From the IMG/VR virus record IMGVR_UViG_3300027851_001169, positions 1 to 23,134 of that record: DNA of 23,134 nucleotides; one strand, 5' to 3'. A program made the position numbers and the translations under genes. This DNA comes from a virus. This document shows positions 7,978 to 12,275 of this stretch, one piece after another. Every line of letters begins with the position of its first letter. The first letter of the stretch is position 1. The notes beneath the pieces are model-generated. The model was given only the letters and a program-made list of their open reading frames with translations. It did no database searches and was not told the DNA's origin.

Positions 7978-8736
7978 ATGGCCGAAAATTCCCCGATCGA
8001 ATGGACTGATGCGACGTGGAACCCAGTTGCAGGTTGTTCCATCGCCTCATCTGGTTGCACGAACTGTTATGCCATGCGCATGGCGGCCCGGCTCGACGCT
8101 ATGGGCGTGGAGAAATACAAAGGGCTGACCCGCAAATCGGGCGGCCGCGCAAAATGGACTGGTAAGGTTCGCTGCGACGAAAAAGCACTGTCGGTACCTC
8201 TACGTTGGCGAAAGCCACGAAAGGTCTTCGTGAACTCGATGTCCGACCTCTTTCACGTCGATGTTCCGGTCGATTTCGTTCGGAAAGTATGGAGCGTGAT
8301 GCGCGATACGCCGCAGCACGATTACCAATTGCTTACCAAGCGCCCCGATCGGATGAAGGTTATGCTTTCGGGTTCGGACTTCCCTGTTCTCCCGAACGTG
8401 TGGCTTGGCACCAGTGTGGAAGGCCCGGAGGTTCTCGACCGAATTTCCCATCTCCGGGACACACCGGCGGCAATTCGCTTCATCTCGTTCGAACCATTGA
8501 TTGGCCCGATCATCGAAGCCGATCTTCGCGGCATTGCCTGGGCAATTGTGGGCGGAGAGTCTGGCCCTGCCGCACGCGAAATGAAGGAAGAGTGGGTATG
8601 GGCTATAGAGCGGCTCTGCCGACGAGACGATGCCGCATTCTTCTTCAAGCAGTGGGGCGGAGTGAACAAGAAACAAACAGGTAGAAAACTCGGTGGAAGA
8701 ACCTATGACGAGATGCCTTCCTGTGTCACATTATAG
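7978..8736 (+). CDS. Three-Cys-motif protein, DUF5131 (phage Gp37/Gp68 family)
   Basis: This is a protein of unknown function found in phages and mobile elements, usually beside TcmP. It has 252 residues. The N-terminal IEWTDATWNPVAGC is followed by GCTNCYA, giving C20-X6-C27-X2-C30. This recalls a radical-SAM iron-sulphur site but lacks the canonical CX3CX2C spacing. Later family motifs are KVFVNSMSDLFH, YQLLTKRP, WLGTSVE, RFISFEPLIGP, WAIVGGESG and FFFKQWGG. The GAGAGA ribosome site is 5 bases ahead of the ATG. Codon use is less GC-rich than in the tail genes, suggesting acquired cargo. It lies 3 bases upstream of tcmP, so the two are an operon. The reaction is not known to me. Confidence 0.9.
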   Translation: MAENSPIEWTDATWNPVAGCSIASSGCTNCYAMRMAARLDAMGVEKYKGLTRKSGGRAKWTGKVRCDEKALSVPLRWRKPRKVFVNSMSDLFHVDVPVDFVRKVWSVMRDTPQHDYQLLTKRPDRMKVMLSGSDFPVLPNVWLGTSVEGPEVLDRISHLRDTPAAIRFISFEPLIGPIIEADLRGIAWAIVGGESGPAAREMKEEWVWAIERLCRRDDAAFFFKQWGGVNKKQTGRKLGGRTYDEMPSCVTL

Positions 8737-8739
8737 TGC

Positions 8740-9903
8740 ATGGCACTAGACCCAGCACTTTACGTTGGCCGTGAACAAGCCTTCGTCAAACATCTCTTCC
8801 TTCAAGACTACCTCGGGGCATTGCTTCACAAGATCGCAAGCGCATATGACCAAATCGCCTATGTCGATGGCTTTTCTGGCCCTTGGAAGAGCGGCGACGA
8901 GAAGTACACAGATACGTCCTTTGGAATCGCGCTACGGCTTTTGACCGAAGCCAAGAGTTTCTGGGCATCAAAGGGTCGCAAGGTTGGTGTCGAGGCGCAT
9001 CTTGTAGAAAAGCTGCCGGCTTCCTTTGCCGAACTTTCAGGGATCGGCTCCCTGTTCCCGGGTGCTGATATTCACCCTTACAACAATAATTTTATGGAGG
9101 TTGCACAGAACATCAGCAGTAGGATTTCTGCCGGCGCATTTACATTCAATTTGGTCGATCCAAAAGGGTTCTTCGATCTTGTCCGTCTCTCGCCGCTCTT
9201 GAGTAAGCCGCGGAACGAGGTCGTTTTCAACTTCATGTTCGACTTTGCAAATCGCTTTCGAAGTCATGAGCATGTCGAGCCGAAACTCGATCGCATGTTC
9301 CACGGAGTGGATTGGAGAGGCCGGATAAATCTAGACGATCCCTCTTCCACACCAGCTAGCAGAAAGGCTGCATTCCTGGAATGTTTCAAAGATGCAGTCC
9401 GCGGGATAGGCGGCTACAATTACATTGCAGACGTTGATGTGCAGTACCCCGGCAAGGACCGGACCTTTTATTTCTTAGTCTACGCTACGCATAGCTCTGC
9501 CGGGATCGAGGTTTTTAGAAACTCTCAGATGAAGGCATTATCCGCGCAATCTGATATTCAAGGCCGCATGCGAATAGCAAATGAGGAGGCAAAGGGGCAA
9601 CTCGGTCTCTTTCAATCCCAGAATGAAATGGCTGAGGCGTCTCATCTAAAGTTTGTAAAGCAGGAGAAATCCAGAGCATCGGAAATGCTTTTGCATCTTG
9701 TTCAACAGTCAAACGGTCAGCGATGGAAGGATCTGTGGCCAAGAGTCCTTGCGGACTGTGCAGTCAAAAGGTCAGATCTCAACCTTGCTGCGAAGGAGCT
9801 TAAGGACCGAGGCCATCTAACCTTCCCGCAATGGGAAAAATCGAAAAGGGTCCCCGACGACAGCTATCGTGTGTTTATGGGCAACGTGGATGGTGTGCGT
9901 TAG
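8740..9903 (+). CDS. tcmP: Three-Cys-motif partner protein TcmP
   Basis: This is the partner of the DUF5131 protein; the two families occur together, hence the name. It has 387 residues. YVDGFSGPW (41-49), an acidic HLVEK strand end (87-91, E90) and NLVDPKGFF (137-145, D140-P141) are arranged like motifs I, II and IV of a Rossmann-fold SAM-dependent methyltransferase, so I infer a methyltransferase-like fold; activity is not shown. The C-terminal part (from about 290) looks like a helical/winged extension (RWKDLWPRVLADCAVKRSDL, LAAKELKDRGHL). There is no Shine-Dalgarno, so translation is probably coupled to DUF5131. It is A/T-richer than the phage backbone and convergent with the lysogeny operon; its stop lies within an inverted repeat. 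Confidence 0.87.
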   Translation: MALDPALYVGREQAFVKHLFLQDYLGALLHKIASAYDQIAYVDGFSGPWKSGDEKYTDTSFGIALRLLTEAKSFWASKGRKVGVEAHLVEKLPASFAELSGIGSLFPGADIHPYNNNFMEVAQNISSRISAGAFTFNLVDPKGFFDLVRLSPLLSKPRNEVVFNFMFDFANRFRSHEHVEPKLDRMFHGVDWRGRINLDDPSSTPASRKAAFLECFKDAVRGIGGYNYIADVDVQYPGKDRTFYFLVYATHSSAGIEVFRNSQMKALSAQSDIQGRMRIANEEAKGQLGLFQSQNEMAEASHLKFVKQEKSRASEMLLHLVQQSNGQRWKDLWPRVLADCAVKRSDLNLAAKELKDRGHLTFPQWEKSKRVPDDSYRVFMGNVDGVR

Positions 9904-9914
9904 CTAAAGCTAAC
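9899..9914. repeat. Perfect 16-bp inverted repeat GTTAGCT-AA-AGCTAAC at right edge of cargo cassette
   Basis: Seven-base perfect arms with a two-base centre cover both the TcmP stop (9901-9903) and the stop of the opposing lipoprotein gene (9910-9912). It could be a compact bidirectional transcription barrier, although no T-run follows, or a boundary mark of the inserted cassette. It shares GTTAGC-N-AAAGC...TAAC with the element at 7946-7963. Confidence 0.65.
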
Positions 9915-10341
9915 CAGCCTCCACCGCAAAATCCCGGTCATTTGCTACCCGACGTGTCTCGATCTCAGGAGCCCCGCCCTCTTCGGTCACCGTCACGATT
10001 CGCTCGCCAATTTGCCCGCCGGCTGTGATGCAGCCCGCTACATCGAAGACTTCGCTTTTTTCCGCGTCCGCCAGCGCATCCCACGCCGCACGCGCGACAC
10101 CAGGTTTTGCGCCCCCGTGCTTCCAGACGCCCAACTGCTCGTAGTGCTCCAAACGCTTCATGCAGGCCTGAAAGCGAGCACCTTGTCGATCCATGCCCAA
10201 CTCGCCCTGAAGCTTAGGCGCAGTCGCGTTGGTCGCATTCGGATCAGAAGTGCCGCCACCGCATGAAGCCAAGGCCAAACTGGCACAGCAGGCTTTCAGG
10301 AAAGAACGCAGTCCCAAACGAAACTGAAGACGTCGCATCAT
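9910..10341 (-). CDS. Small lipoprotein of the lysogeny operon
   Basis: This is a predicted exported lipoprotein of unknown function. From the ATG at 10341, which overlaps the HIRAN stop as ATGA, it has 143 residues. A basic N-terminus (MMRRLQFRLGLRS) leads into a hydrophobic stretch and a lipobox LASC, with the lipidated Cys followed by GGGTSD. Gly at +2 does not suggest inner-membrane retention, so outer-membrane location is likely. Two more Cys occur in the mature part (QACMKR, AGCITAGG). It is the last gene of the CI-HIRAN-lipoprotein leftward operon, so it should be made in the lysogen. Superinfection exclusion or another surface change is a reasonable guess by analogy with other prophage lipoproteins. 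Confidence 0.75.
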   Translation of the reverse strand: MMRRLQFRLGLRSFLKACCASLALASCGGGTSDPNATNATAPKLQGELGMDRQGARFQACMKRLEHYEQLGVWKHGGAKPGVARAAWDALADAEKSEVFDVAGCITAGGQIGERIVTVTEEGGAPEIETRRVANDRDFAVEAG

Positions 10342-10766
10342 TCCTCCCATTCCGGATCCGGATAAAAATCGTTGTCTGGGTCCACACCCTCACCCGCTGG
10401 CACATGTGGCTTCATCGCCTTCGCGTTGAGGTCTACCACAGGTTCGGTCCCATCGAAGGTTGCGCGGATCCAGCACCCCCACGGCGTCTGCACCTGAAAC
10501 ACAGTGCGAATATCCACGCCATCGCGCAGCAGGCCACCAATGCGGCCGCATCGTTCAGCGGTCAGATATCCCAACTGCCCGCCATCGCGTGCAAAAACAG
10601 CAATTGCGCTCGGGTCTTTCTTGTTCGTCGGTTCGGGTACTAGGTCTACTGGTTCACCAGGTGCGAGCAGCTCAATCTCGAACCGGCGATTGCTGCCATC
10701 GGCGTTGGGGTATGCAATGCCGACCACAGCCAGCGACATCGCAGGAAGCGACGCCGGCGCAATCAC
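10338..10766 (-). CDS. HIRAN-domain protein
   Basis: This small protein consists mostly of a HIRAN domain, a fold that binds DNA ends in helicase-like proteins and also occurs alone in bacteria and phages. It has 142 residues. Diagnostic features are AVVGIAYPNADGSNRRFEIELL, GEPVDLVPEPTNKKDPSAIAVF and GGQLGYLTAE (about residues 13-73). An acidic tail ends in DPEWEE. It overlaps CI upstream and the lipoprotein downstream, both by four bases, so the three are one translationally coupled unit under the repressor promoter. Its role in a lysogen is unknown; sensing of foreign or damaged DNA ends is speculation. Confidence 0.85.
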   Translation of the reverse strand: MIAPASLPAMSLAVVGIAYPNADGSNRRFEIELLAPGEPVDLVPEPTNKKDPSAIAVFARDGGQLGYLTAERCGRIGGLLRDGVDIRTVFQVQTPWGCWIRATFDGTEPVVDLNAKAMKPHVPAGEGVDPDNDFYPDPEWEE

Positions 10767-11425
10767 ATCCGCCGCCCGATCCAGACAACCCGCCCAACGA
10801 CATGCAATTCATCCTCCACGGCCTCGATCGGCGAGACGTTCGGATTGTCGCTCATTAACAGGAACAGGCCATTGGCCATCCGGCGCACCCGCTTGACCGT
10901 GGCAAGTTGGCCATAGCCGAGCGCCCAGATGCGGTCTTGCTTGGTGATCACGTTGTCAGCGCGATTCACGATCACATCGTCTTCGTCGAGGATCGTCGGC
11001 ATCATCGAATCGCCATCGCCACGCGTCAGAAAAAGGTCGGACGGGCCATAGCGAACGATGCGGTCGAGCCAGTCACTCCGGAACGGCACAAGGTTGGTTT
11101 CCACCGCCCCGTCGATGAAAGTTCCGCCACCCAGCGCGAAGTCGAGACTGATCTCGGGAATAAGGCGCATGCCGAGCTGCTCGGCGATAAGCTCTGGCGT
11201 GGGGATTGGGAGCGCGCCTGCAGTAGGATCGTCCGTTTCACCGCTAAGAAACGCTGCGGTGGTTTGCAGCGCATAGGCGATTCTATGGAGGTGCTTGGTC
11301 CCCACTTTGTTGCGATTGATCAGATTGTTGATGGTGGGCTGGGCAAGCTCAACCTTCCGAGCGAGCTCGGATTGCGACATTCCTAGCTCAGCCAGGCGCG
11401 CGGCAATGCGATCTCCGACAGCCAT
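10763..11425 (-). CDS. cI: CI-like repressor: XRE helix-turn-helix plus S24 (LexA-type) domain
   Basis: This is the likely lysogeny repressor, with 220 residues from the ATG at 11425 (AGGAG just upstream). The N-terminal HTH is MSQSELARKVELAQPTINNLI (residues 16-36). The C-terminal S24 domain has the catalytic Ser in RGDGDSMMPT (Ser140) and Lys in ATVKRVRR (Lys178). The linker where LexA-type proteins cut at Ala-Gly reads ISLDFALGGGTF, without a plain Ala-Gly pair, so self-cleavage is uncertain. It is divergent from the Cro-like gene at 11509, with a perfect 18-bp dyad only 10 bp upstream of its start, which suggests autoregulation. It heads the operon with HIRAN and lipoprotein genes. Confidence 0.92.
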   Translation of the reverse strand: MAVGDRIAARLAELGMSQSELARKVELAQPTINNLINRNKVGTKHLHRIAYALQTTAAFLSGETDDPTAGALPIPTPELIAEQLGMRLIPEISLDFALGGGTFIDGAVETNLVPFRSDWLDRIVRYGPSDLFLTRGDGDSMMPTILDEDDVIVNRADNVITKQDRIWALGYGQLATVKRVRRMANGLFLLMSDNPNVSPIEAVEDELHVVGRVVWIGRRM

Positions 11426-11434
11426 CACTCCTAC

Positions 11435-11452
11435 CTATAGCCATAGCTATAG
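11435..11452. promoter_or_regulatory. Perfect 18-bp operator CTATAGC-CATA-GCTATAG (O1)
   Basis: This is a perfect dyad with 7-bp arms and a 4-bp centre, in the CI/Cro intergenic region next to the cI start. Size and symmetry fit a dimeric HTH repressor site. It sits where the cI promoter or leader would be, so binding would most directly affect cI itself. A second, imperfect element of equal length lies at 11483-11500. Confidence 0.75.
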
Positions 11453-11473
11453 CGCGCCATATTTGTTTTGGGA

Positions 11474-11501
11474 TTGACTGCCCTATAGTTTTTGGAATAG
11501 T
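11474..11501 (+). promoter_or_regulatory. Candidate early rightward promoter (cro side)
   Basis: TTGACT (11474-11479) is a near-consensus -35. With a 16-base spacer, AATAGT (11496-11501) is a 4-of-6 match to -10. Predicted transcription would begin around 11508, at or beside the ATG at 11509, so the first message could be leaderless or nearly so. The imperfect operator at 11483-11500 lies across the spacer and -10, as expected for repression by CI. Confidence 0.6.
11483..11500. promoter_or_regulatory. Second, imperfect 18-bp operator over the early promoter (O2)
   Basis: CTATAGT (11483-11489) and GGAATAG (11494-11500) span 18 bp like O1 but pair perfectly only at CTAT/ATAG. The left arm shares CTATAG with O1. 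The centres of the two elements are 48 bp apart. A weaker second site over the rightward promoter is a common switch design; binding is inferred. Confidence 0.5.
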
Positions 11502-11508
11502 TAGGGAT

Positions 11509-11832
11509 ATGGACTCGATCCCCACCCCTTTCGAAGCCCTTGAAAAGGCCCTCCAGATTGCAGGCTCGCAAAGTGAACTTGCGCGTATTTGTGGCGTTCA
11601 ACAGCCGACCGTCTGGAAATGGCTCCAGAGTTCCAAGCGGATACCTGCCGAGCATGTCCTCCGCGTCGAAGCTGCGACCCGTGTTCCCCGTCATCATCTG
11701 CGCCCCGATATCTACCCGGCCGACCTTGGCCCTTCCCCTCGTTGGCACGGGGTAGATCGTGGCGAAGGCCGCGTCTCTTTCCAAACCACCAGCATTTCGC
11801 AACGTAGCCAAGACCTTGGTGCCGCAGCATGA
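11509..11832 (+). CDS. Cro/YdaS-like HTH regulator
   Basis: This is a small DNA-binding protein placed as the Cro counterpart of the switch, 107 residues long. The HTH is at residues about 19-57: GSQSELARICGVQQPTVWKWL, then RIPAEHVLRVEAAT. This pattern matches YdaS/Cro-type regulators, in which the recognition helix follows GVQQPTVWKW. The C-terminal 40 residues look disordered. There is hardly any leader before the ATG, and AGGG lies only two bases upstream. It overlaps the next gene as ATGA and begins the long rightward operon. Some YdaS relatives act as antitoxins; the position here favours a Cro role. Confidence 0.85.
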   Translation: MDSIPTPFEALEKALQIAGSQSELARICGVQQPTVWKWLQSSKRIPAEHVLRVEAATRVPRHHLRPDIYPADLGPSPRWHGVDRGEGRVSFQTTSISQRSQDLGAAA

Positions 11833-12275
11833 CCAAGCGCCGCGAACCCCTCACCTTTCACCGCGCGCTGACCGTGGTTGCTGCCCAGATCGGGTGGGAT
11901 CGCTGCGCGATGATCACCGGGCGCAGCGAACGGCAGGTGCGCAACTGGTCCGATCCCGATGCCGATAGCGAAATCTCGATCCTCGATGCCAACCGGCTCG
12001 ACAAGGCCTTCATCGCATCGGGCGGCGATCACGCCCCGTTCGGACAGGTCTACAACACCCTGCTCGAAATCGCGGCGGCAGAAACTGATTCCTGCCTTGT
12101 CAATGCTGCGGCCAACGCGGCCAAGGAAGGCGGAGAGGCGGTTTCGGCCATGCTCGATGCCGCCACGTCGCGCGATCCGGCAAAGCGCCGCCGCGCCCGC
12201 AAGGAAGGCGAAGAAGCCATCGCCGCGCTGACCCGTGGCCTTGCCGCGCTCGATGCGCAGGAAAAGGGAGCCTGA
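11829..12275 (+). CDS. Probable CII-like helix-turn-helix regulatory protein
   Basis: The product has 148 residues. The N-terminal half (LTFHRALTVVAAQIGWDRCA, then MITGRSERQVRNWSDPDADSE) looks like an HTH whose recognition helix is followed by a DPD turn, as in phage CII-type regulators, where LNP-like turns follow the HTH. The C-terminal half is alanine-rich and helical, with AAANAAKEGGEAVSAMLDA and RRRARKEGEEAIAAL, a possible coiled coil. It overlaps the Cro-like gene by four bases and precedes the Ogr-like gene by 5 bases. I cannot place it in a named family with certainty; regulator is the safest reading. Confidence 0.6.
   Translation: MTKRREPLTFHRALTVVAAQIGWDRCAMITGRSERQVRNWSDPDADSEISILDANRLDKAFIASGGDHAPFGQVYNTLLEIAAAETDSCLVNAAANAAKEGGEAVSAMLDAATSRDPAKRRRARKEGEEAIAALTRGLAALDAQEKGA

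Follow-up and report, generated by a model that had tools for sequence, protein, structure and literature searches.

The stretch of DNA analysed here, referred to as the window, covers positions 1-23,134 (23,134 nt) of the virus record IMGVR_UViG_3300027851_001169. A scan of ten of its proteins identified tail genes on the left, among them tail-sheath, tape-measure and baseplate genes, and a DNA primase and an integrase gene on the right; the lysogeny switch sits between the two groups. Judged by this gene content (tail-sheath, tape-measure and baseplate genes together with an integrase and a lysogeny switch), the window is a temperate, contractile-tailed phage. Since relatives of two genes carried behind the repressor, encoding a lipoprotein and a HIRAN protein, both occur in Sphingomonadales genomes, with a relative of the lipoprotein in a Novosphingobium genome, the host is likely a sphingomonad.

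The genes at the lysogeny switch are listed in Table 1. The original prediction had placed a HIRAN gene and a lipoprotein gene behind CI, with overlaps of four bases each, and both overlaps were confirmed on the minus strand: 10763-10766 between the CI stop and the HIRAN start, and 10338-10341 between the HIRAN stop and the lipoprotein start. The lipoprotein could alternatively start at ATG 10350, with a 13-base overlap, or at ATG 10338, with a 1-base overlap and a better spacing from GGAGG. The 4-base CI-HIRAN overlap is also present in the related loci L002, L055 and L056; in L003, CI and the lipoprotein gene overlap by 4 bases, and the lipoprotein gene of L142/L004 begins 15 bases past CI. 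Amino-acid changes are far fewer than silent changes in all three genes when they are compared with relatives: pN was 0.056 and pS 0.62 for CI against L002, 0.081 and 0.74 for HIRAN against L002 (silent sites near saturation), and 0.302 and 0.66 for the lipoprotein against L003 (0.144 and 0.64 for the core alone). Given this gene order, the overlaps and the conservation, CI, HIRAN and lipoprotein should be expressed from one lysogenic transcript. A terminator between the HIRAN and lipoprotein genes was considered and rejected: the one weak match, at 10326-10309, lies inside the lipoprotein gene, and the total, two found against 1.6 expected, is at chance level.

Table 1. Features in and around the CI operon, in positions of the window
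Feature	Position	Strand	Description
DUF5131 and TcmP genes	7978-9903	+	DUF5131 3 bases ahead of the three-Cys-motif partner TcmP; convergent with the lipoprotein gene
Lipoprotein	9910-10341	-	143 aa
Lipobox LASC	10261-10272	-	L24-A25-S26-C27; predicted lipidated Cys27, Gly28 at +2
HIRAN protein	10338-10766	-	142 aa, GTG start
Acidic-aromatic C-terminal tail of HIRAN	10341-10373	-	residues 132-142; from conservation and motif counts
CI-type repressor	10763-11428 or 10763-11425	-	N-terminal Cro/CI helix-turn-helix, C-terminal S24 domain
Putative divergent promoter/operator region	11429-11508	.	between CI and the Cro-like gene; repeated CTATAG-type elements
Cro-like regulator, YdaS family	11509-11832	+	Pfam YdaS_toxin 9.8e-20; PHROG transcriptional repressor 9.1e-21; divergent from CI
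Phage regulator-like protein, possibly CII-like	11829-12275	+	phrog_38866 2.7e-22; weak CII-like matches

The likely start of CI is ATG 11425, as the equivalent codon starts the CI of the close relative L002. The protein matches Peptidase_S24 (1.5e-16) and HTH_26 (2e-7) in Pfam and a transcriptional repressor family in PHROGs (5.5e-41). Ser141 and Lys179 are invariant in the 11-row alignment A5, and the protein combines, as an S24 repressor should, a helix-turn-helix with an S24 domain carrying the Ser-Lys dyad. The canonical self-cleavage site of S24 phage repressors is Ala-Gly or Cys-Gly. In alignment A5 the CI family keeps the dyad and shows neither Ala-Gly nor Cys-Gly in the stretch where a cleavage site would be expected, which reads FALGGG in the window and AYGMG in several relatives; judging from these residues, prophage induction may proceed by a route other than ordinary RecA-stimulated self-cleavage of CI. 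The region between CI and the divergent Cro-like gene contains short direct and inverted repeats; its single match to a sigma-70-like promoter, on the plus strand at 11474-11501, is at chance level (mean of 0.8 in shuffles). The possibly CII-like protein served as an anchor for finding related phages and gave seven related loci in viral contigs.

The DUF5131-TcmP pair beside the operon looks like an acquired candidate defence pair. DUF5131 matches the PADLOC candidates PDC-M41B/M30B, TcmP matches PDC-M30A and TIGR04474 (103 bits), and the G+C content of the two genes (0.56 and 0.50, respectively) is lower than that of the other window genes measured. We set the pair aside as a part of the exclusion device proposed for this operon, since TcmP was found in none of five related phage records, possibly fragmentary ones, and the strand of both genes is opposite to that of the operon.

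The lipoprotein and the HIRAN protein

A lipobox motif marks the signal peptides of bacterial lipoproteins, and under the Lol rule of E. coli a Gly at +2 is compatible with outer-membrane sorting. The LASC lipobox named in the original prediction is there and is preceded by a hydrophobic run, as in a lipoprotein signal peptide; Cys27 and Gly28 are invariant in all six family members, and two further cysteines (C60 and C104) are conserved. Because of the lipobox and the Gly at +2, the protein is most likely anchored in the outer membrane and faces the periplasm. It has a conserved C-terminal domain, predicted to be compact, and its AF2 model is confident over about residues 42-135. The family could not be assigned: searches of Pfam, PHROGs and PADLOC gave no match at E <= 1, NCBIfam gave a single sub-threshold match (E 0.083), a PDB sequence search gave a best E of 0.15, and Foldseek against the PDB gave nothing at E <= 0.001. 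The best VIA match, PaaI (Z 4.4, rmsd 2.9, 78 aligned), was background and was rejected as the fold.

The domain assignment of the HIRAN protein proved correct: it scores 40.1 bits against a curated cut-off of 24.7 for Pfam HIRAN (PF08797), matches phrog_27141 over residues 10-139 (3.4e-35), and its AF2 model (mean pLDDT 84.2) has the fold of the HIRAN domain of human HLTF (Foldseek 6.2e-6; VIA Z 11.2, rmsd 3.5, 100 aligned). An uncharacterised Lactobacillus protein was matched with VIA Z 13.3, rmsd 2.8 and 98 aligned. The C-terminal region of HamB, from the Hachiman defence system, has a similar fold (VIA Z 7.0, rmsd 2.8, 78 aligned; a Z below 8 may reflect merely a common arrangement), but it is a piece of a large helicase and was absent from the HIRAN sequence matches. 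The only hydrophobic stretch of the HIRAN protein, residues 1-19, is at the 1.6 threshold of the hydropathy heuristic, is partly a strand in the model and is unflagged in the HIRAN protein of L002; the protein is predicted to be a soluble barrel, not a transmembrane chain.

In HLTF, Y72 and Y93 are described as bordering a cavity and stacking on the bound dinucleotide (PMC4666394). In the NNPYD stretch of HLTF, the Tyr that we took as Y93 aligns with K50 of the HIRAN protein, and of 80 phage relatives 66 have His, Ala or Lys at the equivalent position. Y72 aligns with F29, a correspondence inferred by ungapped extension only, and the residue is Phe in 71 of the 80. Residues N48, D51, G66, Y67, Q91 and R101 are identical in all 80 relatives. 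The protein thus shares with HLTF the fold and the aligned Asn and Asp, kept in 80/80, but differs in that both stacking residues of HLTF are Tyr (here Phe and a mostly non-aromatic residue), in lacking the helicase attached in HLTF, and in having an extra C-terminal tail. The original prediction held that the domain binds DNA ends. With the HLTF fold, DNA binding, including that of ends, is plausible, but since Y93 is not kept, the binding geometry may differ or end binding may have been lost.

The tail completes a layout of barrel, variable linker and conserved acidic-aromatic C-terminus. Over 25 aligned rows the mean majority-residue frequency was 0.58 in the tail and 0.30 in the linker, and a typical phage tail reads DFYPDEEWPDD. 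Of the 80 phage relatives, 75 carry an F.PD-type motif within their final 22 residues and 70 fit a stricter tail pattern; among 2,107 control ORFs from these loci, some of which are probably not genes, 13 have the F.PD-type motif. None of seven HIRAN relatives from an Alphaproteobacteria sample has the tail in its last 20 residues. SSB has an acidic tip, and the HIRAN tail may, as an idea, be likened to it.

Genes behind CI in related loci

Among the best 80 of 129 phage-contig relatives of HIRAN, 77 have a same-strand CI-family repressor upstream (one of the 77 CI matches scores a mere 47.7 bits), and the other three contigs, which extend less than 1,200 bases upstream of HIRAN, are too short for a call. 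The gap between CI and HIRAN in the linked loci was at most 60 bases in 45, 60-1,500 bases in 28 and 2,066 bases in one; three large negative gaps result from ORF starts that are too long. When the loci were clustered by HIRAN identity, linkage to CI was found in 72/75 clusters at 95%, 68/71 at 90% and 35/37 at 70%. This recurrence of HIRAN behind a repressor in dozens of related phages, read from gene order, is the surprise of the analysis.

The picture is more varied in cellular genomes and plasmids. HIRAN matches at E <= 0.001 were found in 32 of 396 sampled Sphingomonadales genomes. At the 25 strongest sites HIRAN lies behind a same-strand CI in eight cases and has no same-strand CI upstream, in the stretch fetched, in 17; at one site CI is on the other strand. 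Relatives at E <= 1e-10 were present in 7 of 385 genomes of the Alphaproteobacteria sample, and in the 3-kb surroundings of these seven, a CI-family match was seen once on the opposite strand and once, weakly at 21 bits, upstream on the same strand. The family is also carried by 15 plasmid records. In a tree of 25 HIRAN sequences the CI-linked copies clustered, with 3 changes of state against 8.0 in shuffles, but did not form one group; a supported clade of four CI-linked HIRANs takes in the window copy. Alignment A4 leaves out L060, L079, L080 and L081 of the 27 fetched HIRAN genome regions. As separate observations, a HIRAN match lies in the unannotated human-gut phage record H1, which is outside all counts; a relative on the Sphingobium plasmid pTK4 (L085, 2057-4411) is downstream of two SOS response-associated peptidase genes; and the plasmid copies L086 and L089 are near HU and MucR genes, two other plasmid copies being in different settings.

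Viewed from the repressor, the association is looser. Among the 80 related viral CI loci examined, the best of at least 498 CI relatives, 25 have HIRAN, as do 19 of 66 clusters; this share is biased by the CI profile A5, which includes five further HIRAN-linked rows in addition to the window and L002. The remaining 55 loci, a few of which end shortly after CI, have no HIRAN in the chain. The sets of 80 HIRAN and 80 CI viral loci share contigs. A quickly built CI tree with 74 rows, which omits L002 and representatives with less than 400 bases past CI, shows 7 changes in the presence of HIRAN against 20.6 in shuffles, and at least four gains or losses are forced by supported branches. Because about a third of the related CI loci carry HIRAN and its presence changes repeatedly on the CI tree, we regard it, on these sequence comparisons, as an accessory gene, co-inherited with the repressor over some distance yet dispensable.

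The genes that follow CI were surveyed in 38 loci, the window included, 35 of which have a co-directional gene after CI. By an untrained heuristic of hydropathy and lipobox, the first such gene was flagged as exported or membrane-bound in 19 of 35 loci (17 after two false flags, the window's own HIRAN and L068, were dropped; Fisher P = 5e-6 for 17/35), compared with 26 of 203 control ORFs from the same loci picked by length and codon-position G+C; some flagged downstream ORFs look antisense to tail genes. Lipobox proteins accounted for 7/35 first genes and 1/203 controls. Other cargo in CI operons includes WYL-TerB, secreted SNase-like, NA37, RelA/SpoT-domain and Excalibur-domain proteins. In L055 (2758-4808, minus strand) CI and HIRAN are followed by NA37 nucleoid-associated and RelA/SpoT-domain proteins, which look like defence cargo. 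WYL-TerB recurs in the slot of HIRAN in L003 (5333-6073) and L120 (2723-3442), by Pfam, and in L068 and L143, by reading. Small exported SNase-like proteins lie behind CI in L014 (whose Pfam SNase match, E 0.0012, narrowly misses the cut-off) and, by reading, in L135 and L266; a periplasmic nuclease made in lysogens would offer a direct means of destroying incoming DNA. In L277 the gene that overlaps CI by 4 bases encodes a lipoprotein of a different family, and the next protein is, by reading, TcmP-like, so that CI operons may also harbour such a partner.

The lipoprotein of the window has a narrower distribution. It was found behind CI in three phages (the window, L003 and L004), with distant relatives L017-L019 in three genomes, that of L019 sitting amid seemingly chromosomal genes as read from its neighbours, and further weak genome matches in G223 (3.8e-9) and G167 (2.1e-6). 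The phage and plasmid records searched gave no match. One candidate for a distant member behind CI, L308, has no GVWKHGGA core and was discounted. HIRAN was not found in the L003 and L004 stretches or in the Novosphingobium genome with the counterpart of L004.

Two separate cargoes or one machine

Of the original prediction, the lysogeny operon itself, with one exported and one intracellular cargo protein, is supported. The reading we prefer is that the CI operon is a lysogenic-conversion slot with two separate cargoes, an anti-phage envelope lipoprotein and a cytoplasmic HIRAN protein that binds DNA ends or ssDNA, and we give it an even chance of being right. While its organisation is seen directly in the window and its relatives, we infer the functions of both the lipoprotein and the HIRAN protein. 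As the gene anatomy strongly suggests, the CI promoter would drive a coupled CI-HIRAN-lipoprotein transcript, so that the cargo would be made while the prophage is silent and would confer two separate benefits rather than form one machine. The lipoprotein, one of many interchangeable neighbours, would most likely block adsorption or DNA entry of competing phages. The HIRAN barrel would hold DNA, with a flexible linker and with the acidic-aromatic tail binding a partner or covering the groove, and the protein would target the DNA of superinfecting phages or DNA ends laid bare at damaged forks in the lysogen, or would contribute to prophage stability. Given its plasmid copies and the 17 genome sites without a same-strand CI, HIRAN need not have a role confined to phage exclusion.

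A more specific proposal makes the HIRAN protein a DNA sensor of the lysogeny operon, in which the barrel and an SSB-tip-like acidic-aromatic peptide, co-translationally coupled to the repressor, detect DNA ends or ssDNA. We consider this rather unlikely. If it were true, the sensor would detect linear phage DNA or broken chromosomes, whereupon the intruder would be shut down or the phage's own induction adjusted, and prophage immunity would have a form distinct from repressor binding and surface exclusion.

The main rival holds that HIRAN is a factor of the prophage switch or its stability, one that responds to ssDNA or DNA ends in the lysogen and either adjusts CI-dependent induction or shields the prophage when damage occurs. 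Its position behind CI in nearly all phage-contig loci, often with overlapping start and stop, and the supported CI-linked clade around the window copy argue for such a role, as does the pneumococcal lysogeny-module gene szaL, which is described as changing induction (PMC12637031). However, CI can do without HIRAN: 55 of 80 CI loci show none in the chain, and the CI tree has several changes in its presence. We regard this account as possible but doubtful. It is quite unlikely that the cargo serves the host outside phage defence, the lipoprotein altering the envelope and HIRAN aiding DNA repair or the upkeep of plasmids and prophages: the plasmid HIRAN copies, one beside the SOS response-associated peptidase genes, two beside HU and MucR genes and two in other settings, and the seemingly chromosomal surroundings of L019 would suit such a service, but related CI operons hold the defence-like cargo of L055, L003, L120 and L014.

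Weakest is the joint surface-plus-cytoplasm exclusion device of the original prediction, to which the adjacent, overlapping genes, the exported or membrane genes in 6/9 HIRAN operons of the first survey and, of any family and before or after HIRAN, in 47/80 viral HIRAN loci (in 21 of the 28 with genes between CI and HIRAN such a gene lies there, and in 28/77 it is next past HIRAN), and the description of pneumococcal ThaL as a transmembrane HIRAN protein (PMC12637031) lend some colour, but which is very unlikely given the independent assortment of the two cargo genes: in L003 and L004 the lipoprotein follows CI with no HIRAN found, its family appears in none of the 80 viral HIRAN loci in the stretch examined, and exported or membrane cargo is about as common in CI operons without HIRAN (19/26).

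Comparison with known systems

The bacterial and phage HIRAN literature, in the papers covered, gives the function as unknown or as a possible sensor of phage DNA, in varied settings. HIRAN domains have been proposed to sense the DNA ends of invading phages in kinase systems (PMC8262856). HipN and HipL are like the window protein in being or containing a bacterial HIRAN domain proposed to recognise phage DNA ends, but are members of kinase toxin-antitoxin sets (PMC8262856); no HipA-like kinase, adjacent or fused, was found among the eight scanned proteins of the window region. Genes for HIRAN and HipA are reported beside dinuclease genes (PMC11706625), a Stenotrophomonas phage is listed with a HIRAN protein in its replication module (PMC6469090), and another HIRAN gene pair is noted (PMC9503650). 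Among the papers listed by whole-word searches of open-licence PMC, none presents a general CI-HIRAN linkage or the tail in its title or abstract opening. The occurrence of the family behind CI in dozens of distinct phages, together with the conserved end peptide, gives HIRAN a defined place, an expected time of expression and a handle for a partner search, and makes a role in lysogeny or superinfection directly testable. New lysogenic-conversion and anti-phage genes of sphingomonads may also be sought profitably in the variable slot behind CI.

The closest precedents are Ltp and pneumococcal ThaL. ThaL, from the C1 lysogeny module of pneumococcal prophages, is described as a HIRAN protein that spans the membrane (PMC12637031). 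It resembles the window protein, by description, as a HIRAN protein within the lysogeny module of a C1-regulated prophage, and differs in being transmembrane, whereas here a soluble barrel with a tail is predicted and exported proteins are encoded by separate genes. Ltp of the Streptococcus thermophilus phage TP-J34 and its relatives is a lysogeny-module lipoprotein that stops DNA injection and is expressed in the prophage state (PMC3952083). The lipoprotein gene of the window has the same kind of placement, behind CI on the same strand and overlapping HIRAN by 4 bases. Ltp differs in its Gram-positive host and in that its injection block has been shown, whereas the window lipoprotein belongs to no recognised family and is likened to it by description; by analogy, Ltp may serve as the functional model for the window lipoprotein.
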